A stretch of DNA of 64,000 bases from Candidatus Poseidoniaceae archaeon. GTDB taxonomy: Archaea; Thermoplasmatota; Poseidoniia; Poseidoniales; Poseidoniaceae. The stretch covers positions 1 to 64,000 of the forward strand of contig CASIAP010000005.1 of assembly GCA_949372645.1 (NCBI GenBank). The letters run 5' to 3'. Below, piece after piece: positions 1,577-14,343 of the stretch (positions within the stretch are counted from its first letter, which is position 1; every line of letters starts with the position of its first letter). The notes beneath the pieces were generated by a model, which made no database searches, had not been told where the DNA came from, and saw only the letters and a list, made by a program, of their open reading frames with translations. The translations under genes were made by a program, and so were the position numbers.

Positions 1577-3604
1577 ATGGCAGAACACACCCGGTTTGGA
1601 TTCTCACACTTCCTTTCACGCAGTTCCACAGCAATTAGTTTGATTTTCTTGATGATTCTTATGGGATGTTCCCCACTTTTTACTACTCAAGTCACATTGG
1701 ATTCTACAGAACAAGCGCCTGCAGATGGACGACAGGCTGAGCAAATTACAGATGAGTGTGAAGGTTTGAAATTTGAAGATCTTTTTAATTACGACTTTGC
1801 TGACTTTATCATTAATTTCGGTGATGATTGGGCAACGGCAGAGATGGATGCTGGCGCCTTTGTCAACGGAAGTAAATCTTCAATCGTTCGAGACAATCTT
1901 GACGGTTTATTCGAAGGCCTCTCTGGTGGAGGAAATGAATTTATCAGCACTGATGAACGTGATGCAGTTCGTGCAATTGGTCCAAAATGCATCGGGGTAA
2001 TGGACACGAGAGTGGGCGTACGTGAAGGTATTCCTCATCGAGGAACTCCAGATTGGAATAACATGTCTTTTGTTGAAGATGGCATCGGATTAGATGAAAT
2101 TGATCTCGTGCCAGCAAATCATCCAGAACAACGCTCTTGCCAGAACCTTGGTTCTGCAAACGGATGCAAAGAAGTCCCTGTCTCGATTACTGATGACTTG
2201 CAAATTATGATGTTCTTGGATGAGGGGCAAACAAATAACGTTCGTTTCGATAAACTTCCGAACAGTGGCGATTCCAATTTTACTTTAGCAGTGAATATTA
2301 CCAACATGTCCTATGCGCATTTAGAAATCAACTTCCCACTTAATCAAGGATTACGCATGTTAAATTACTCCATTCAAGATACCTTAACTGCTTCTGATGG
2401 AACTGTCACAGTATCGGAAAACGCGGTGATGGAAGGCCCAGAAGCCATGTATCTCCCTGACGGCCGACTCCGCGTCAACCAAGTTGTCACCTATGCAGCA
2501 TCCGAATATCCAATGCTTCGTGAATTATTCATCGATTTCACGACGATGGCTCCAGAAACAAATGAAGCACCTGAATGGAGTTCAAATGCTCCTCAAGATG
2601 GGACAATAATTCCTTTAATTGGAGTGACTCCAGGCCAGAATGCAAATGTAATGGCCGTTACTGGGCAAAAAACCGAGATGTGGGCTACCGATGAAAGCGG
2701 ATGGGGACTGGAATGCAGTTTCACAGAAAATGGTTGGACTGCTTCACTCGATAGTGATGGAGACCTGATCGTCTCTACTGTAAACTCACAAGCTGAGTCT
2801 TCAAATGCAGAATGCTATGTTGTCGACCCCTTTGGTGAAAGTTCTATTGATTCACGGAACTGGACGTTTGGCCAGGTCTTTACTTCCAGTGCTATGCTCT
2901 CTGAAACTGGAGACAGTATCGAATTTACCATCACGCCAACAGGTTTAATCAACGAATTGGAAATTTCTGCACACGCTCACCAAATGAATAGCATGGGGCA
3001 AATGCGTAGTGTTACCCTTGCTGCAGATGCTGCAACTATTTCACTACCGCTCGAGGGATTATCACCCGGTGCAGTCATGGTCATGGGTGACGCTCAAAGT
3101 TCAACCATGTTAGACCTTGACTTCATGCTCGACTTTAATCTTGAAAAGGCAAGTCTACCTCCAATGATATCTGTCAAGAAAAACCTTGATGGAGGGAATG
3201 CAACATGGGAAGCAAGTGGACTTACCTTTACTTTGCAAGGAGATGTGCTCGATCCTGATGGTGAAGAAGTCTCTCTTTCCCTTGAACTATGTGGCTATAA
3301 AACGAACAATTTCTTGCGTGATGGAAGCAGCTGGGAAATCGAGGTCTACATCGTGTCCTGCTCCGAGCAAAACCCACCTGTGACTGCTTATGATGTCGTA
3401 TTTACTGCAACAGATGAATCGGGCACAATGACAACTCTTACCGCGTATATTCCTGACCCATATGCCAATAATAACGGTGATACGCCTGGCGATGACAACA
3501 CGATTACGGTTGAAGAAGAAGGTCTCCCTGCACTCTCCATGGTGGCAACTTTGAGCATCACACTCCTCGGTGCAGCCTTTGCAGGAAGAGCCCGAAAGGA
3601 GTGA
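1577..3604 (+). CDS. Exported protein with lipobox-like N-terminus (LMGC) and C-terminal hydrophobic anchor followed by RARKE
   Basis: 675 aa ORF. N-terminal hydrophobic segment ending ILMGCSP; C-terminus LPALSMVATLSITLLGAAFAGRARKE. Confidence 0.8.
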   Translation: MAEHTRFGFSHFLSRSSTAISLIFLMILMGCSPLFTTQVTLDSTEQAPADGRQAEQITDECEGLKFEDLFNYDFADFIINFGDDWATAEMDAGAFVNGSKSSIVRDNLDGLFEGLSGGGNEFISTDERDAVRAIGPKCIGVMDTRVGVREGIPHRGTPDWNNMSFVEDGIGLDEIDLVPANHPEQRSCQNLGSANGCKEVPVSITDDLQIMMFLDEGQTNNVRFDKLPNSGDSNFTLAVNITNMSYAHLEINFPLNQGLRMLNYSIQDTLTASDGTVTVSENAVMEGPEAMYLPDGRLRVNQVVTYAASEYPMLRELFIDFTTMAPETNEAPEWSSNAPQDGTIIPLIGVTPGQNANVMAVTGQKTEMWATDESGWGLECSFTENGWTASLDSDGDLIVSTVNSQAESSNAECYVVDPFGESSIDSRNWTFGQVFTSSAMLSETGDSIEFTITPTGLINELEISAHAHQMNSMGQMRSVTLAADAATISLPLEGLSPGAVMVMGDAQSSTMLDLDFMLDFNLEKASLPPMISVKKNLDGGNATWEASGLTFTLQGDVLDPDGEEVSLSLELCGYKTNNFLRDGSSWEIEVYIVSCSEQNPPVTAYDVVFTATDESGTMTTLTAYIPDPYANNNGDTPGDDNTITVEEEGLPALSMVATLSITLLGAAFAGRARKE

Positions 3605-3661: not shown

Positions 3662-5122
3662 ATGTTCGCGGGTGTAATTGAGTCAAAAAGTCATGAAGGA
3701 GGATTTCTGGTTTCGTTCACGGGATCTTCTCCCGCCCTTGAATCCATCATCATCAATGCCGAGACAGGTATTTACATCGGTAAAGTCGATGCTGTACTAG
3801 GTAATACCAACTCTCCACTCGCTCACGTCGCCCATGTTGACCGAAAACTCGACCTCGATTCATTACTCGGTATTGAAGTAGGAATTCGTGCCAAGAAACA
3901 ACGTGAAGAACGTCGTGAACGTTCTGATCGAGGCCAAAGAGGGAACGATCGAGGGTACCAAAGTCGAGATAATCAAGGTGGACGCTTTGAGAGAAATGAC
4001 CGAGGACAAGACAACCGTAACGGTGGAGACTGGGACTGTCCAAAATGTCAGAATAATAATTTCGCATTCCGACAAGAATGCAATCGCTGTGGAGAAGCAC
4101 GTGGCGCTGGTGGAGGACGTGGTCCTCGACAAGACGATCGCCGGGGTGGGAATCAAGGATATCAAAGTCGAGACCGACAAGGTGGACGCTTTGAGAGAAA
4201 CGACCGTGGACAAGACAACCGCAACGGTGGAGACTGGGACTGTCCAAAATGTCAGAATAATAATTTCGCATTCCGAACAGAATGCAATCGATGTGGAGAA
4301 GCCCGTGGTGCTGGTGGAGGACGTGGTCCTCGACAAGACGATCGCCGGGGTGGAAGCCAAGGATACCAGAGTCGAGACCGGCAAGGTGGACGCTTTGAAA
4401 GAAACGACCGAGGACAGGGTAACCGTAACGGTGGAGACTGGGACTGTCCAAAATGTCGAAATAATAATTTCGCATTCCGAACCGAATGCAACTCATGTGG
4501 ACTTCCAAAAAGCGGTAGCAATGACCGACGTGGCGGAAATGACCGATATGGTGGCAATGACCGACGTGGTGGGAATGACCGTGGTCGTGAAACGAAAGTC
4601 TACACCGATAACGATTGGGATTGTCCAAAATGTCAAAACTCAAACTTCGCATTCCGCCAGGAATGCAATCGCTGCCAAGCACCTCGCTCTGGCGCCGGTG
4701 GCGGTGGCGGACGAAGCCAACGTCGAGATGATGGTGGAAGACCACCTCGTAGAGATAGCGGCGGAAGACCACCACAACGCGATGACCGAAGAGCACCTCG
4801 ACGCGATGATGGTGGAAGACCTCCTCAACGTGACGACCGATCTCGAGCACCTCGACGCGATGATAGTGGAAGACCTCCCCAACGAGACGATGGTGCAAGA
4901 CCTCCTCGACATGAAGGCGCTCGACCTCCTCGACGTGATGGCCGAGACCGACGTAGCGACGGTAGCGGGTATCAAAGCGGAGGTTCATACGGCAATCAGG
5001 ACAGAGCTCCTGAGCGTAATTCCCGGGAGCCTCGAAACTTTAGAAAATCACGTGGTAATGGTCCCGGTCATGCTCATAACCGCCCACCAAAACCTCTCAT
5101 CAACCCAGACCGAGATGATTGA
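3662..5122 (+). CDS. Gar1-like H/ACA RNP domain protein fused to four RanBP2-type zinc fingers and RGG/RPP-rich disordered regions
   Basis: N-terminal ~85 aa (AGVIESKSHEGGFLVSF...IGKVDAVLGNTNSPLAHVAHVDRKLDLDSLLGIEVGIRAKKQREERRE) matches the Gar1 pattern. Four copies of WDCPKCxNxNFAFRxECNxC (W-D-C-x2-C-x10-C-x2-C). Preceded by GGTGAAGGT. Confidence 0.8.
   Translation: MFAGVIESKSHEGGFLVSFTGSSPALESIIINAETGIYIGKVDAVLGNTNSPLAHVAHVDRKLDLDSLLGIEVGIRAKKQREERRERSDRGQRGNDRGYQSRDNQGGRFERNDRGQDNRNGGDWDCPKCQNNNFAFRQECNRCGEARGAGGGRGPRQDDRRGGNQGYQSRDRQGGRFERNDRGQDNRNGGDWDCPKCQNNNFAFRTECNRCGEARGAGGGRGPRQDDRRGGSQGYQSRDRQGGRFERNDRGQGNRNGGDWDCPKCRNNNFAFRTECNSCGLPKSGSNDRRGGNDRYGGNDRRGGNDRGRETKVYTDNDWDCPKCQNSNFAFRQECNRCQAPRSGAGGGGGRSQRRDDGGRPPRRDSGGRPPQRDDRRAPRRDDGGRPPQRDDRSRAPRRDDSGRPPQRDDGARPPRHEGARPPRRDGRDRRSDGSGYQSGGSYGNQDRAPERNSREPRNFRKSRGNGPGHAHNRPPKPLINPDRDD
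3945..4510 (+). repeat. Tandem repeat with 204-bp period (68 aa), about 2.7 copies, within the Gar1-ZnF gene
   Basis: The segment CAAAATGTC[AG]AATAATAATTTCGCATTCCGA recurs at 4041, 4245 and 4449, with near-identical flanks. Confidence 0.9.
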
Positions 5123-5131
5123 GGAGGCGGA

Positions 5132-6169
5132 ATGATGGGTGCTGAACATCACTATCTTAATGCCGTAGAAGCCTATGATGACGGCGATATTGAAACCGCC
5201 TACGAAGAGGCCTTCAAGGCAGTCCAAATTGACCCGGAACATGTGGATGCTTGGCAATTGTGTGCTGAAACTGCGCTTCCTCAGAAAGGAGAAAAACCAA
5301 CTTTACTTCAAGCTGCTAAATCATTAGCTGCTGTTCGAAAAATTATAGCTTTAGATCCAAATCGAACCGCAATGTGGATGTTGGGTGGACGGTTGCTTAC
5401 GGATGAGTTAGGATTACTCAGTGAAGGCTTGCAATGGTGGCAAGACCTTCGTCATCAGTTACCCAAAGAAGTTACGCCACTTGTGGAACAAGCATCATTA
5501 TTAGCAGATATGGGACACTATCTTGAAGCAAAATACCGCCTTGATACCATCATCGAAGATAATTTAGATGGTGGACCTACTCAAATTGCTAAAATTCATC
5601 AACTGCGAAGCCAAGTAATTGCTGCAGCAAATCTTCAAACTTCTGAACATTTCAAACCTTGGGAAAAGCATCACAACGGCTGGGGTGCAATTGAACTCAA
5701 GATGGGCAAAGGCCCGGTATCGGAAAGTTTTCTTTTTCTCATAACAACTGTTCCAGTGTTGATGATTGTCGTCTACTTCTCGAACCAAGTAGCTGGTCGA
5801 GGCTGGGGGGCGTTTTGTCTGACAAGTTTGGTAATCTTTGGTACCGTTTTGTTTGGAATGCGAATGGCAAAGCGTATGTTCCACAGTATTAATCGGCCAG
5901 CGTTTAACTTGCTTCGCGCAATGAATTTCGAAGCAAACACAGGCTATTCGATTATCCATTCCGATATTCGAACTTCTCCTCTTTACATGTTTATCATGCA
6001 AAGAAAACCAAAAGCATGGCAAGAACGGATGCTGAAAATTATTGATTCGAATACGGACTTACCAAAGAATTGGAAGCCAAGTTTCCCTGATTTCGAATCA
6101 CACTTGGATGAAATGGGATATATCGACGAAGAAGGTGAAGAGAGTTTCGAAGCCTTTGAAGAAGAATAA
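5132..6169 (+). CDS. TPR-like repeat protein with two C-terminal-half TM segments
   Basis: Start preceded by GAGGAGG, 9 bp after the Gar1 stop. N-terminus HYLNAVEAYDDGDIETAYEEAFKAVQIDPEHVDAWQLCAE is TPR-like. TM segments ESFLFLITTVPVLMIVVYF and WGAFCLTSLVIFGTVLFGM. Confidence 0.8.
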   Translation: MMGAEHHYLNAVEAYDDGDIETAYEEAFKAVQIDPEHVDAWQLCAETALPQKGEKPTLLQAAKSLAAVRKIIALDPNRTAMWMLGGRLLTDELGLLSEGLQWWQDLRHQLPKEVTPLVEQASLLADMGHYLEAKYRLDTIIEDNLDGGPTQIAKIHQLRSQVIAAANLQTSEHFKPWEKHHNGWGAIELKMGKGPVSESFLFLITTVPVLMIVVYFSNQVAGRGWGAFCLTSLVIFGTVLFGMRMAKRMFHSINRPAFNLLRAMNFEANTGYSIIHSDIRTSPLYMFIMQRKPKAWQERMLKIIDSNTDLPKNWKPSFPDFESHLDEMGYIDEEGEESFEAFEEE

Positions 6170-7464: not shown

Positions 7465-10400
7465 TCACTGCTGGCTTTGAGCATACTGTAACGCGTATTG
7501 CTGGGCATAAGCGGCGGCTGTAGCCGCATCATAACCTTGCGAAGCAAACTGCTGGTAGTATTGCTGGTAAACCGCATCATCCATCACTGAAGCTGCGGCA
7601 ACTGGAGCTGCGGCAACTGGAGTTGCGGCGACTGGAGCTGCGGCAGCTGCCTGTGAGGCATATTGTTGAGCATAAGCACGAGCTGTTTCCTCTGGATATC
7701 CTTGAGCAATCAATTGTTGAACGTATTGTTCAGTTTGGTCAATAACTCCACCGAATCCAGTCTCGCCGACTTCATATCCTTTGGTGTCATCTTCTGAACC
7801 CTTCCGAATAAACAAGAGTGTCAAGAGAACAACCACAACCAAAACTATACCGATGAGTCCTGGTAAAATAAAACCAGAAAGGGCACTTTCTGTTCCATCC
7901 ACTTCCTCCGAACTTTGAGGTTCATTCCATTCCCCATCGACATAGGTCCAGTCGCCAGACCATTGGCACTTCCCATCGATATCAAGAATCCAAAATCCGC
8001 CTGCTAAGGCCTCTAGAGGTGGTTCAACACCCTTACAGGCCGGTAAAATAATATCAATCTGTTTGTACACAGCGTTGATATAATCACTCCCTTCGGAAAC
8101 CTTGATGTAAATCGTCAGATTTAATGCTTCATTCAAATATTTACGATCAAGTTTAAGATCAAGAGAAAATGTATCTCCATCTTTGAGTTTATCCTGTATG
8201 GAATAGTCACCTAATGTATCATTTTGAAACTTCTCAGTAGAAGTGCCAACATCCAAAAGGAAACGGCCAAAGGCAATTTCGACGGTCACGTCACCAGTTG
8301 CTGCACCTTCGTTTCCAGCCAATATCGTACCGGTAATGGTAATCTCATCTGTCTGTGCTTGGCAAGGTGTGTTATCTTCTGAAGCTTTTACACAGTCTTG
8401 ACCACCGATTAGCAGTGAATAATCAAAATCCGGAATTTCATCGCCATATGTTGGAGATACTACTTCGAAATACATTTTATGTTCCAAAGAGAATTTACCT
8501 GCACCGTCGAACACAATCAATTCGAATCGTATTTGAGTCGTTGCAGCGGTTGAGACATCATCAGGCTCTGTTTGATTCTTGAACGTGTAAGCAAACATTC
8601 CATTACTTGCAGATGTTTGAACAAACGAATGACCGGTAATATCGAAATTGTCATCATCCCATTCAGCATCGAACAAAACCCTCCATTCATACCGCTCAAT
8701 TCCATTTCCGTCAAGTGAATCCTCGTCAGAAGAATTACTTGCATCGAAGTAAATTGTAACTGCTCCAGTATCATCAAGAGTAATTCGATGGACGTCCCAA
8801 TCTTCCCCTTGAATGGTATTGGTGCCAATGTGTTCTACTTGATCTGCATATCCTTCACGCATATCGATTTGAGCATCTGCAATTGGCTGGAATGAATCTG
8901 CAAAGACATCGTTGGTTTGAACGGTTACAGAGATCATTCGTGAATGGCCCGCTGCATCGTGAAGAATGAGAGTAATATCCCATTCTACGCCTTGAGCGCA
9001 ACCGGTTGCAGAAGCAAGGTCAATCTTACAGAATGTCGCCACTGGAGATGTATCGGTGATATGGTCAGTACCCGTTGCCATGGTGCTACCAGACCAAGAA
9101 CTTGGACCATCAAGAATCCAATCGGTTTCAAGTGATTCAGTCGTTTCTGTTGTGTAAGAGAAAGTCAATTCAGCATTACTCTTGATATAGATATCTGCAT
9201 ATCCACCAGTACTCGCATTATTATCCGGTACAACACCGTTTATTGCGAGATCTAGGCCATTCCCAAGAACACCAAAACCAGTTGGATAAGGTGTGACTTG
9301 ATAATTGAGCATATTTCCAAGAAGAGGTAAGGTCGAGGAGTCAGCACGTTCAGAATGGGTTGCAACGTCGATGGTTGAAATGATCATTCCACCCGATTGG
9401 TAACTGCAGACGCCCAGAATCGTATTTTTCTGGTCAGCAAGCGTTCCATCTTGCCGAATAATTCGTTGAAGTGTACCCTCTTTCTTTGATTCACTGTCGC
9501 CACCACAAACTGCTGGAATAGCAGTCACGCTTTGCTTCGACGTATCCAAAACAGCAGTCGCAACTGTACCACTTCCATCAAAACCTTGGAAAGAAGACAA
9601 AGCCACATTCTCCATCAATGGATGATAGGGGTCTGCGAATTTTGTGTCACCAAATTCAATCGGAGGGGAATCATCACTGGTTCTCGAATTGATCGTCAAA
9701 TCCAATGGTAGCCTTAGATTAAGGTCATTCTCCGTCCCGTAGACTTGGCTTGATTGAGGCCCAAGGTGGGCTTGAATTGTTCCACCTGCGGACATGAAGT
9801 TATTCAGAGTATTTTTCCTCTGACCTGAACTAAGTTTTTGGAAGTATCCACGGCCATTATCTTCTGCCGAAAGAGTCGTTTGCCATGGCAGTACAATCTT
9901 GTCGTAATGTGTAAACCAGCCACTCAAGAAGTAGGTATCCCAGTCGTTAATCTCGAATTGTGTGTATGACATTCCAAGAATGTTAAGGTCTTCTTTAATT
10001 GTAGAAGTTCGAGTTGAGGTGTCGGAAAGAATTGCCACGTTGATTTGGTCAGCAAAGGTTGCATGGAAATAACGAACGTTACCAGATGGATTCCCGTTAC
10101 TCAGTTCAGCATCGAAACTAATGTTGTATTCGTGTCCATCCACCCAGCCATTCCATGGAGTGAAAGTCACATCATGAAGTTCGTTCGAGTTCAAACTTAC
10201 AGCTGGACCAGCTGTTGTAGAGTGGGCCGTATTGCTGCTGGTCATGTCATAGATGTTCATGTTAAAGATATAATCACCAGCAAGAACTCCATTTATTGCC
10301 TTAAATTCCCAATTGTGGGCTAAAGCACTATCAATTGGCATTACACATTCCAAGGTTTGGTCATTCAAACAAATGAGTTTGTTTGGTGCATAAAGTGTGA

Positions 10401-13400
10401 TATCGACAGATTCAACATTGAAGATCACAGTTTCCCTGTTATTGGAGACAGATAATTCATCATCATTAAACCAAGACTTCCCAACTGTTGAATTGTCAAA
10501 GATCGTTTCAACATCAATCTTATAGACACCTGAATAGAATTCATGATTTCCAACGATGTCAGATGAACTTTGTTCTGCATCCACATTTGTTCGGGAGATG
10601 GTGTAAGAATTGTCTTCAACGAATGTAAACTCTTGAAGACTTATATTGTTAAAAGCAACACCTTTGAAACCGTCATTAATACCGTTTCGTCCATCATCAT
10701 CGGATTGGAATTCGAAGTTAATATCAATGGTTGAGCCAGCGAGGGATGTGCATTCATAGGCCCAATTCCCAGTGTTTGCATCAGTGGTATTGAGCATATA
10801 CAAGTGAGTCAAATCAATACTTGTAGTTTGGACAAGATCATTGGTGTTGAAGAAAACATTGTAATTACCAGCTGTACCATCGGTTGAAGCATCATCACCA
10901 ATGTAAGAGATTTCACTAAAGTCGATTGGTTCAGAAGCGTTGACGATGTTATCACCGTTTTCATCTTCTTGGCAAGTTCCATCTTCATTATAATCGTTCC
11001 ATTGCCCCATAACCACACTGCTGTAAGTTGCACCATCACGTAGAATATCAAGAGTCATTGCTGCATAATCATTGACATCGACAATAGTGGTTCCATCAGA
11101 ATCGATTCCATAGAAGGTATCGGCATAGTATTCGAAATTAAGGGATACGAAGTCACCGCTCATTGAAGTCAAATCTACATCAGGGATAGTAAGCGTTTCA
11201 TTGGCCCAAAGGTCACCATATCCGTTGGAACCCGTATCACAAGGATGTCCAAACCAATAGGCATAGCCTGTGTTGAAAATCTTATCTTGGCAACTCGCTT
11301 CACCATAGATTGCACCTTGAGGGTTTTGGCTTTCTTCATATCGGTAGCCTGCTGCCCCGCCTTCAAAGTTCTCTTCACACAAAGCACTTGGAGTGCCACA
11401 GTAAATATCAGAAGGAGTGGCAGAATAAACAGTTGCCTTGACATCAAAATCAACTGGTGTATTACCCCAGTTATTGGTAGCCACTTCAATGTCGAAGACG
11501 CCTTCTGCATACAATCCACCGGGATTGAAATACTCGAGACCTTCAACCATTGGGTCATAGAGATTGAATGGTGTGATATATCCGATGATTTCATCATTTT
11601 GAGATTGTTCATCCCATGAATTGCCGGAAAGTGTTGCGGATATACGATAGGTCGTATCATTCAGCAAATCAGCTGTAATCGAAGAAGTATATTCTTGTCC
11701 TGGGCCAAGGTTGTTGAGATTAATGCTTGTCTGTTGAACCTGTGGGTTTGTCTCGAAAGCAGTCGTCTGCTTCCAAATACTCAGGTTGTCAACTGCATAT
11801 CCATCTCGGCCTGTCCATAGACTTTCATTATCATCAGAAATCGAACCTTCAAAACCAGTTCGGAGACGGAATCGAATATCGACGGTCTCACCAGCCCAAG
11901 GGCTGAGGTCGAAGGCGCCAACGCCTTCTTCAGTGAAGTTATTCCAACCATAGTAGGTTCCGAATGAATAGACTCCGTAGTAATAAATTCCTTCAGGTGC
12001 GCCACCGATGGATTGTTTGTACATTCTGTCCATGTCAAATCCGCCCCACATTGATTCACCAGATGCACATGCACCAGCGATTTGAGCTGTTTGAGGGCAG
12101 GAAAGAGTAGACCAGCCTGTTTCAACACTGCCGATTTCAATCATTGCGATGTCATCCCAGACATCTCCAGCAAGGTATTGTCCGTTCGCATCCAAACTTC
12201 CCAGCACACCGTGTCCAAGGTGTTGGAACAGTTCGAGACTCATGAAAGCACGATCTGAGCCGGTCAAATCGACGTCTTCGAGAACCATTGCATCGTCCCA
12301 GTTTCGTCCGTATCCAGTCCAAGTGTCTCCACTGGAGTTGGTATCAGAGTAACCTGCCCACATGAAATCAGTTGGGTTGAGGTAATTCGCTGAAACGTTT
12401 GGATCATTGTTTCCATCGGTTGCACCCGTGGAATGGTTGGTTTCTTCGTGCCAGTATGTTGATTGATCAACATATTCTTCGTAGGACCACGTACATCCAC
12501 TACAGGATGCCTTGTTCTCTGGGGCATCCCAATCCATTTCGTAAACGGAAGTGTTGGATGAGTTCGCTTGGTCGACAACCTTCAACTCGACGTTGAGGGT
12601 CGCTTGTTGACCGTTGAGGACATCCATTCCGGTGTTGGTAACGGTGACGTTGATGTCACGAGTTCCTTCGCCGACAACGCCGTAGAATTTGTCAACAGGA
12701 GAAAACTCAATTGAAGAGACTGACAAATCTTTGCTGTCCATTTCAATGACAGAGATGGTGTCGTATTGTCCTTCCCAGCCGAAATTGTCTCTCCAGCCAG
12801 AGAATCGCCAATTTGCATGACCCACGACCAAATCGTCAGCTGAGTTAGCTGAACCTGCGAGTTGGCCTACGTCAACTACATTCGGGCGACGGCCTGAAGC
12901 ATACGACAACGGGCTTAAATGGCCGCCATTACCGTCTGAAAGAGTCACTTGGACCGTAGTTGGGAAATTCAAAAAGAATGAAGAAGTTGAACCGCCAGCA
13001 GAATCGGTCGTGTTTTGTTGATAAGCAATTGTCGGGTTAATGAAATCAGGCTCTTGATCGCCGTTCAAATCAGTAACTGCTACTTGCCAAGAGATGTAGG
13101 GGCCAAAATAAGCCAATGTCGGTGAGTTCCAAGTACCAACTGCGGAAGAGGTAACATACGTAACATTCTCCAAGTTGGCATCGTTGAGCACCATGACATC
13201 AATGACACCGTCTTTATCCATGTCCCCGATATCAAAATTTTCTGAAGTGACCGTGTTCATGTTAATGACGTGAGAGTTTGGTGGAGGATTGGTTGCACTG
13301 AATGTATAGGTAGCGGGATAGGTGTTGGTTAGACAACTGAACTCAATGATGCTCATATTGTCGTCATTACCTGGATTGGTGACTTGGCCTGAGCTGTAAT

Positions 13401-14190
13401 CAAGACCTTCACCACGATGAAGCCAAATATCATCATCAGTGCATGTGCCTGAGAGTCCACCTGTTTCGGTTTCTCCCCAGTCGCCAACTTCCATATTTCG
13501 GTATGTATTTTGCTGAGAGGATCCAAGAGTGGTGATCAATCCTTGCGTGTTGCTTGTGATTGGTCCACGGTATGTTACGACCCGTTGAGTGGTAATATCA
13601 GCCAACAAATCGAGGACGTATACGTCATCGTTTCCGTCTTGATTCGCATCGCCCACGGCAAGGTCCCAAGCCCAGAAGTGAGTAAATCGAGCACCAATAC
13701 TCCATGATTTTTCATCACAGCCACCGTTTTCGATGATGGTGACGTTTCCAGGTTCGCCAGCAGGTGCACCGTTAGCATCGGTCTTGAACGGGTTGTTTCG
13801 TTGGAAGATGACGATATCAGTGGCTGAGTCGCCAGTGAACTCACCAACTTCGATAAATTGAACATTTGAGAAGTCGTCCCATTCAGCGTTACGGCTCGTG
13901 TTCTTTGAAACCCAAATGTCTTGACGTTCGCTAAAATCGCCATTACCATCATTCCAGAGAATAGAGATCGTGTGCGTTCCATCTGTTGCCATAGCCAAAT
14001 CGTTGAAACCATCACAATTGAAATCTCCAATCGCTACATCATGCGGGTCGCGGTTGGTTGTGTATGAACGAGCCACAGACGCACTGGCTGTAGAAGCAAT
14101 GGCAAGGGTTGTCGAAAGTAACATCAGCATAACGAGAAACATGCTTAGGGCGCGGCTCTTGAGGTGGTGGTTCTTGGGAATCATCAACAT
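7465..14190 (-). CDS. Giant exported FG-GAP-type repeat protein with C-terminal TM and Gln/Ala-rich cytoplasmic tail
   Basis: The ORF is open from 14286; the start is chosen at MLMIPKNHHLKSRALSMFLVMLMLLSTTLAIASTASA (signal). Motifs DVAIGDFNCDGFNDLAMAT and VGDANQDGNDDVYVLD. TM LSGFILPGLIGIVLVVVVLLTLLFIRK. Confidence 0.85.
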   Translation of the reverse strand: MLMIPKNHHLKSRALSMFLVMLMLLSTTLAIASTASASVARSYTTNRDPHDVAIGDFNCDGFNDLAMATDGTHTISILWNDGNGDFSERQDIWVSKNTSRNAEWDDFSNVQFIEVGEFTGDSATDIVIFQRNNPFKTDANGAPAGEPGNVTIIENGGCDEKSWSIGARFTHFWAWDLAVGDANQDGNDDVYVLDLLADITTQRVVTYRGPITSNTQGLITTLGSSQQNTYRNMEVGDWGETETGGLSGTCTDDDIWLHRGEGLDYSSGQVTNPGNDDNMSIIEFSCLTNTYPATYTFSATNPPPNSHVINMNTVTSENFDIGDMDKDGVIDVMVLNDANLENVTYVTSSAVGTWNSPTLAYFGPYISWQVAVTDLNGDQEPDFINPTIAYQQNTTDSAGGSTSSFFLNFPTTVQVTLSDGNGGHLSPLSYASGRRPNVVDVGQLAGSANSADDLVVGHANWRFSGWRDNFGWEGQYDTISVIEMDSKDLSVSSIEFSPVDKFYGVVGEGTRDINVTVTNTGMDVLNGQQATLNVELKVVDQANSSNTSVYEMDWDAPENKASCSGCTWSYEEYVDQSTYWHEETNHSTGATDGNNDPNVSANYLNPTDFMWAGYSDTNSSGDTWTGYGRNWDDAMVLEDVDLTGSDRAFMSLELFQHLGHGVLGSLDANGQYLAGDVWDDIAMIEIGSVETGWSTLSCPQTAQIAGACASGESMWGGFDMDRMYKQSIGGAPEGIYYYGVYSFGTYYGWNNFTEEGVGAFDLSPWAGETVDIRFRLRTGFEGSISDDNESLWTGRDGYAVDNLSIWKQTTAFETNPQVQQTSINLNNLGPGQEYTSSITADLLNDTTYRISATLSGNSWDEQSQNDEIIGYITPFNLYDPMVEGLEYFNPGGLYAEGVFDIEVATNNWGNTPVDFDVKATVYSATPSDIYCGTPSALCEENFEGGAAGYRYEESQNPQGAIYGEASCQDKIFNTGYAYWFGHPCDTGSNGYGDLWANETLTIPDVDLTSMSGDFVSLNFEYYADTFYGIDSDGTTIVDVNDYAAMTLDILRDGATYSSVVMGQWNDYNEDGTCQEDENGDNIVNASEPIDFSEISYIGDDASTDGTAGNYNVFFNTNDLVQTTSIDLTHLYMLNTTDANTGNWAYECTSLAGSTIDINFEFQSDDDGRNGINDGFKGVAFNNISLQEFTFVEDNSYTISRTNVDAEQSSSDIVGNHEFYSGVYKIDVETIFDNSTVGKSWFNDDELSVSNNRETVIFNVESVDITLYAPNKLICLNDQTLECVMPIDSALAHNWEFKAINGVLAGDYIFNMNIYDMTSSNTAHSTTAGPAVSLNSNELHDVTFTPWNGWVDGHEYNISFDAELSNGNPSGNVRYFHATFADQINVAILSDTSTRTSTIKEDLNILGMSYTQFEINDWDTYFLSGWFTHYDKIVLPWQTTLSAEDNGRGYFQKLSSGQRKNTLNNFMSAGGTIQAHLGPQSSQVYGTENDLNLRLPLDLTINSRTSDDSPPIEFGDTKFADPYHPLMENVALSSFQGFDGSGTVATAVLDTSKQSVTAIPAVCGGDSESKKEGTLQRIIRQDGTLADQKNTILGVCSYQSGGMIISTIDVATHSERADSSTLPLLGNMLNYQVTPYPTGFGVLGNGLDLAINGVVPDNNASTGGYADIYIKSNAELTFSYTTETTESLETDWILDGPSSWSGSTMATGTDHITDTSPVATFCKIDLASATGCAQGVEWDITLILHDAAGHSRMISVTVQTNDVFADSFQPIADAQIDMREGYADQVEHIGTNTIQGEDWDVHRITLDDTGAVTIYFDASNSSDEDSLDGNGIERYEWRVLFDAEWDDDNFDITGHSFVQTSASNGMFAYTFKNQTEPDDVSTAATTQIRFELIVFDGAGKFSLEHKMYFEVVSPTYGDEIPDFDYSLLIGGQDCVKASEDNTPCQAQTDEITITGTILAGNEGAATGDVTVEIAFGRFLLDVGTSTEKFQNDTLGDYSIQDKLKDGDTFSLDLKLDRKYLNEALNLTIYIKVSEGSDYINAVYKQIDIILPACKGVEPPLEALAGGFWILDIDGKCQWSGDWTYVDGEWNEPQSSEEVDGTESALSGFILPGLIGIVLVVVVLLTLLFIRKGSEDDTKGYEVGETGFGGVIDQTEQYVQQLIAQGYPEETARAYAQQYASQAAAAAPVAATPVAAAPVAAASVMDDAVYQQYYQQFASQGYDAATAAAYAQQYALQYAQSQQ

Positions 14191-14343
14191 CACTAATCTT
14201 CTCCAACCTCTGTTGCACTTTAATTCCTTTGCTTTCCAGTTCCAAGCGAAATCCGTAATAATGCTACGCAGTGGGGCGAATAACATGTCAGATTCACGTT
14301 TGGAACCTTTTTAAAATTCTCGTAAAGTTTCAACTTGGTTTTT

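Follow-up and report, generated by a model that had tools for sequence, protein, structure and literature searches.

A Gar1-family protein with a tail of RanBP2-type zinc fingers in marine Poseidoniales archaea

Bound to Cbf5, Gar1 steers its partner's thumb loop and helps both to position the substrate and to release the product (PMC4551948). In archaea, guided as well as unguided rRNA modification requires Gar1 (PMC6138745). The archaeal protein has no GAR regions, as a first-pass annotation of the DNA studied here had stated for characterised members, and makes no contact with the guide RNA (PMC7991803). The RGG regions of yeast Gar1 alter turnover, which suggests contact with the substrate, and the role of the eukaryotic RGG regions has been called elusive (PMC8096250). 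Among RanBP2-type zinc fingers, those of ZRANB2 contact RNA through D4, N14, R19, R20, and N24, and in FUS and EWS a tryptophan stands at R19 with specificity unchanged (PMC6384913). A literature search, which was limited and is not proof of novelty, returned no paper that joins Poseidoniales with Gar1 and no description of RGG tails or RanBP2 fingers on an archaeal Gar1. The Gar1 and RanBP2 families are already known; what appears to be new is the combination of Gar1 with a finger-bearing tail.

We analyzed a 64,000-nucleotide stretch of DNA (the window) from Candidatus Poseidoniaceae archaeon, a member of the Poseidoniales, the order of marine Marine Group II (MGII) archaea. A 486-aa open reading frame (ORF) with an ATG start occupies exactly the span listed for the whole gene in Table 1. 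The Pfam search that the first-pass annotation had proposed matched PF00641 in four stretches of this ORF (E 2.2e-31), confirming the four RanBP2-type fingers that had been read from the letters; the R-P-P-R/Q repeats reported in the tail were also present. The tail had further been described as RGG-rich disorder. R/G/D-rich disorder was indeed found (R 21%, G 17%, D 12%, N 10%), but the tail of the window protein contains 16 RG and only 4 RGG, so "RGG-rich" is overstated and "RG/DR-rich" fits better; some relatives have up to 20 RGG (L048). Another RNA enzyme of this genome also has RGG disorder: 30 kb from gar1, the window encodes a DEAD-box helicase (PF00270, PF00271; 32125-33894, -) whose C-terminal tail of about 160 aa consists almost only of RGGGG-type repeats.

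Table 1. Features of the gar1 locus, in window positions
Feature	Position	Strand	Basis
Whole gene: Gar1 domain, four RanBP2 fingers, and R/G/D-rich disorder, 486 aa	3662..5122	+	ORF, Pfam, dN/dS
Gar1 core domain, residues 1-84	3662..3913	+	profile and fold
RanBP2-type zinc finger 1, GDWDCPKCQNNNFAFRQECNRCGEAR	4025..4102	+	Pfam PF00641
RanBP2-type zinc finger 2	4229..4306	+	Pfam PF00641
RanBP2-type zinc finger 3	4433..4510	+	Pfam PF00641
RanBP2-type zinc finger 4	4610..4687	+	Pfam PF00641
204-bp tandem repeat (finger plus linker), 2.7 copies, 90% matches	3948..4501	+	
R-P-P-R/Q-D repeat region of tail	4721..4910	+	repeat analysis, translation
Conserved C-terminal motif FRKSRGNGPGHAHNRPPKPL...	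5018..5119	+	52/60 complete Poseidoniaceae proteins
Upstream neighbour: conserved 675-aa membrane-type protein without Pfam match	1577..3604	+	
Downstream neighbour: conserved 345-aa TPR-like membrane protein	5132..6169	+	

Low-complexity repeats yield long ORFs in other frames too, and two of these (415 aa, +; 411 aa, -) overlap the gene; the ORF might accordingly be repeat-rich sequence that resembles a protein, or its likeness to Gar1 might be due to chance. We compared codons of the window ORF with those of three close relatives. The dN/dS ratio was 0.03-0.04 in the Gar1 domain, 0.02-0.04 in the fingers, like the Gar1 core, 0.045-0.065 in the linkers, and about 0.04 in the C-terminal 40 aa. 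These low values along every segment indicate that the whole frame is selected as protein. Together with conservation of the 86-aa N-terminus in 56 of 60 relatives, they rule out a chance or wrong-frame ORF. An artefact, refuted by purifying selection in frame, order-wide conservation, and the fold match described below, thus retains practically no probability, and the overlapping ORFs are by-products of the repeats. The 204-bp repeat, which makes up part of the array, reflects a recent duplication of finger and linker, and such a tandemly repeated module explains how finger numbers change.

The N-terminus had been read as Gar1-like from its motifs. The Pfam Gar1 signal is weak (E 0.011 for the isolated N-terminus; 16 bits versus a cut-off of 29.3), and the NCBI Gar1 equivalog gave 17 bits versus a cut-off of 107; that the window protein falls below the cut-offs of both curated models (Pfam and NCBIfam) counts against the Gar1 reading. 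A single-sequence PDB search with the Gar1 core gave no match. Because single-sequence evidence leaves Gar1 unproven, we carried out four further tests. The domain was gathered from the 60 related genomes (56 with a match) and aligned (A1), and a profile built from the alignment was run against 247 Thermoplasmatota genomes. It matched 61 of the 64 sampled Poseidoniales and, weakly, 21 non-Poseidoniales (E 8e-6 to 6e-3). With the 56 matching relatives, this shows that the architecture, for which the first-pass annotation had proposed a survey, recurs across the order. All 20 of these distant non-Poseidoniales loci that were inspected contained a Gar1-like ORF without fingers; all five of these ORFs tested matched PF04410, and one matched Pyrococcus Gar1 structures (E 2e-11). 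When the Poseidoniales and canonical Thermoplasmatota Gar1 profiles were compared by hhalign, they matched with 98.2% probability (E 4.8e-14, 78 columns), and the canonical-Gar1 profile found the window ORF at E 1.1e-7. The AlphaFold2 model of the Gar1 domain had a pLDDT of 88.8, and its first 14 PDB fold matches were Gar1 or Naf1, headed by 2ey4 and 2hvy, with a best TM of 0.73 by query and 0.83 by target. The best Foldseek E-value was a modest 1.6e-3, as is to be expected of so small a domain. Archaemetzincin (2x7m), the top PDB sequence match of the family profile, was dismissed as chance (E 0.09, 39 columns, partly a tag-like stretch). Every defining feature of the Gar1 family that sequence or model could address was found; the protein belongs to this family and is almost certainly a Gar1 homologue, as the motifs had suggested.

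PF04410 covers both Gar1 and Naf1, and the domain might instead be that of a Naf1-like assembly factor or another non-H/ACA protein, the true Gar1 having diverged beyond detection or been lost. Naf1 structures are among the fold matches, and Naf1 too has long disordered flanks. Gar1 structures, however, outrank those of Naf1 (TM 0.72-0.83 versus about 0.6), and profile searches found no other Gar1-domain gene, so that we regard a Naf1-like protein as improbable. Across the 60 relatives, all NF009632 matches with E up to 0.1 were the finger-Gar1 gene, with no other gar1, and in a single-contig relative (G074) a PF04410 search with E up to 10 returned this gene only. No separate gar1 was found by profile searches in the window's own genome, the assembly of which is 83.7% complete; most relatives are metagenome bins. 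On the point of a standalone gar1 in the same genome, which the first reading had raised as a check, that reading held both there and in the single-contig relative. A weak PF04410 match on contig 3 of genome G020, considered as a second gar1, proved to be a spurious frame. Diverged copies of the Gar1-finger gene occur within one metagenome bin (G167; L116 and L117) and within record PBUZ01 (L170, L172, and L201), representing either mixed bins or true paralogues.

Cbf5 scored over the cut-off in 58 of the 60 relatives, and Nop10 was found in 57. The Cbf5 of the window's own genome keeps GGTLDP, the motif that surrounds the catalytic aspartate in the TruB/Cbf5 family. One 90% complete Poseidoniales genome (G051) had no detectable Gar1 and no above-cut-off Cbf5 or Nop10, a point against the explanation favored here. 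Since Cbf5 and the Gar1 family do occur in further members of the genus, we did not take this co-absence as a functional link; it likely reflects incompleteness, or loss of the machinery. Taken together, these findings make it most likely that the window protein is the Poseidoniales Gar1, the only one detectable, enlarged by an RNA-binding-type tail, and it very probably acts as the Gar1 subunit.

Outside the order, the Gar1 of a sister family of the same class (f3) is short, at about 75-89 aa, and tailless, and in a few other Thermoplasmatota Gar1 proteins the tail is basic and some tens of residues long but bears no fingers (L089, L090, and L103). This distribution is most simply explained by a gain of the tail in the Poseidoniales lineage. 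Viral carriage was considered and rejected, as viral contigs contained no relative. In 17 of 20 distant Thermoplasmatota loci, gar1 lies immediately upstream of the gene for transcription factor B (tfb), whose TFIIB identity was confirmed by Pfam in two of them. Poseidoniales gar1 has no adjoining tfb and lies between large membrane-type and TPR-like genes in nearly all loci of both Poseidoniales families where the contig extends sufficiently; this flanking pair is a new gar1 neighbourhood that replaces the gar1-tfb pair. Elsewhere in the window, a 2273-aa surface-type protein (7465-14286, -) contains two repeats of the type GY....A.AYAQQYA in a short tail that follows its transmembrane segment.

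The fingers belong to the RanBP2 family, with the four cysteines of C-x2-C-x10-C-x2-C and W and N at conserved places. D, W, one N, and one R do not vary across the 142 distinct fingers compared, and four of the ZRANB2 contacts are kept (D4, 100%; N14, 97%; R20, 100%; N24, 97%); the two asparagines that contact U in ZRANB2 are retained in 97%. At the position of R19, F predominates (78%; R 11%, W 5%) and is present in all four window fingers. The predominance of F, where ZRANB2 has R and FUS and EWS have W, counts against an RNA-contact reading. The nearest PDB chains to the fingers are those of FUS and ZRANB2, the style in which the first-pass annotation had placed them. Some members of PF00641 bind proteins, and the weaker PDB matches include Nup153; fingers of this kind could recruit a protein partner rather than RNA, as in Npl4-type or Nup153-type RanBP2 fingers. 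The conserved C-terminal motif likewise suggests at least one protein contact. We nonetheless judge protein recruitment by the fingers very improbable, as the best matches are RNA-binding fingers and most RNA-contact residues are conserved. Their sequence gives good reason to expect that the fingers bind G-rich single-stranded RNA.

The C-terminal motif, [FY]R[KR][AS][RK]G[KN]..[GN]HAHN..P, was seen in L104, L115, L118, and others; its GHAHN..P part is kept despite linker divergence and even in a fingerless protein (L115). In 21 genomes, strong matches lay in gar1 or in short open frames, perhaps contig fragments of it. The HAHN motif probably serves as a short binding site of its own for a partner.

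Finger number varies among relatives. In 77 complete proteins we counted no finger in 8, one in 13, two in 26, three in 21, and four in 9. Three genera (g4, g8, and g17) have no recognisable finger and some others have degenerate ones; in both cases the basic R/G-rich tail is kept. The fingerless genera indicate that the gene can fulfil its core role without fingers. Above-cut-off RanBP2 fingers were present in 46 genomes of the phylum sample, 45 of them Poseidoniales, where they lie in gar1 or in contig fragments consistent with gar1 (one fragment checked, G130); the sole exception was an unrelated proline-rich protein (G063). It is conceivable that the protein is Gar1 but that its tail serves as a general RNA chaperone or forms condensates, for instance to suit life in cold sea water; the tail would then have no particular link to H/ACA substrates, and the fingers would bind any nearby single-stranded G-rich RNA. 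This would suit linkers that change fast while their composition persists, the R/G-rich tail of fingerless members, and the RGG-rich tail of the nearby helicase. By contrast, the constraint on the fingers in close relatives equals that on the Gar1 core, and their near confinement to Gar1 within the phylum points to a Gar1-linked role. A general chaperone therefore seems to us unlikely, though not negligibly so, and we lean towards a main role of the fingers on H/ACA substrates rather than in general RNA binding.

We cautiously favor a Poseidoniales Gar1 with an added single-stranded-RNA grip on its rRNA substrate. By analogy with other archaea, the core would dock on Cbf5 within the Cbf5-Nop10 RNP and control the thumb loop, and the fingers, on flexible RG/DR-rich linkers, would bind G-G-(U/G) in nearby single-stranded rRNA, weakly when single and multivalently together. 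The finger array might concentrate substrate locally, ease its exchange, or retain pre-rRNA while it is modified, and finger number (0-4, shifting by tandem duplication) might tune the grip on rRNA. The functional side of the first reading, from binding of Cbf5 and GGU to targeting and condensation, is plausible, although we consider condensate formation rather unlikely. It is doubtful that a built-in GG(U/G) reader and multivalent tail on Gar1 target pseudouridylation to, or concentrate it in, an rRNA-processing condensate; if true, a free-living archaeon would have arrived convergently at a finger-based counterpart to the nucleolar GAR system of eukaryotes. The presence of several RNA-binding-type fingers on the Gar1 of a widespread marine order, against the small archaeal core described so far (PMC7991803), hints at an extra way of gripping ribosomal RNA and provides a natural experiment on how H/ACA enzymes benefit from RNA-binding extensions. 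It also places the FUS-like arrangement of finger and RG disorder in archaea, with natural variants of 0 to 4 fingers.

Like FUS/EWS/TAF15 and ZRANB2, the Poseidoniales protein has C4 fingers with D, N, N, and R contact positions surrounded by RG-rich disorder, and, like FUS, it has an aromatic residue at the R19 position. It differs from them in that F takes the place of W or R at R19 in most fingers, in its up to four tandem fingers, in having no RRM, and in the attached Gar1 domain. Pfam detected no RRM in the window protein, and its N-terminus is Gar1 rather than a FET-type SYGQ-rich region. With eukaryotic Gar1 it shares a core combined with arginine/glycine-rich disorder. Eukaryotic Gar1, however, has GAR regions at both termini, pure RGG, and no zinc fingers, whereas the Poseidoniales core starts at residue 1, the extension is C-terminal only, and the window tail is RG/DR-rich. 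The window protein is thus neither a FET family member (no RRM) nor a eukaryotic-type Gar1 (no N-terminal GAR region). From canonical archaeal Gar1 (Pyrococcus furiosus, 2HVY/2EY4; PF04410, NF009632), which is about 75-115 aa long and has no fingers, it is set apart by its 400-aa tail, by a SHEGG-type motif specific to the family, and by the genes that adjoin it. The two nevertheless have collinear cores of the same fold, with the elements G-F-L-I/V, P-x-L, and I/V-G-x-V-x-x-V/I-x-G in common, and, as in canonical systems, the Poseidoniales protein is the sole Gar1 detected alongside Cbf5 and Nop10.
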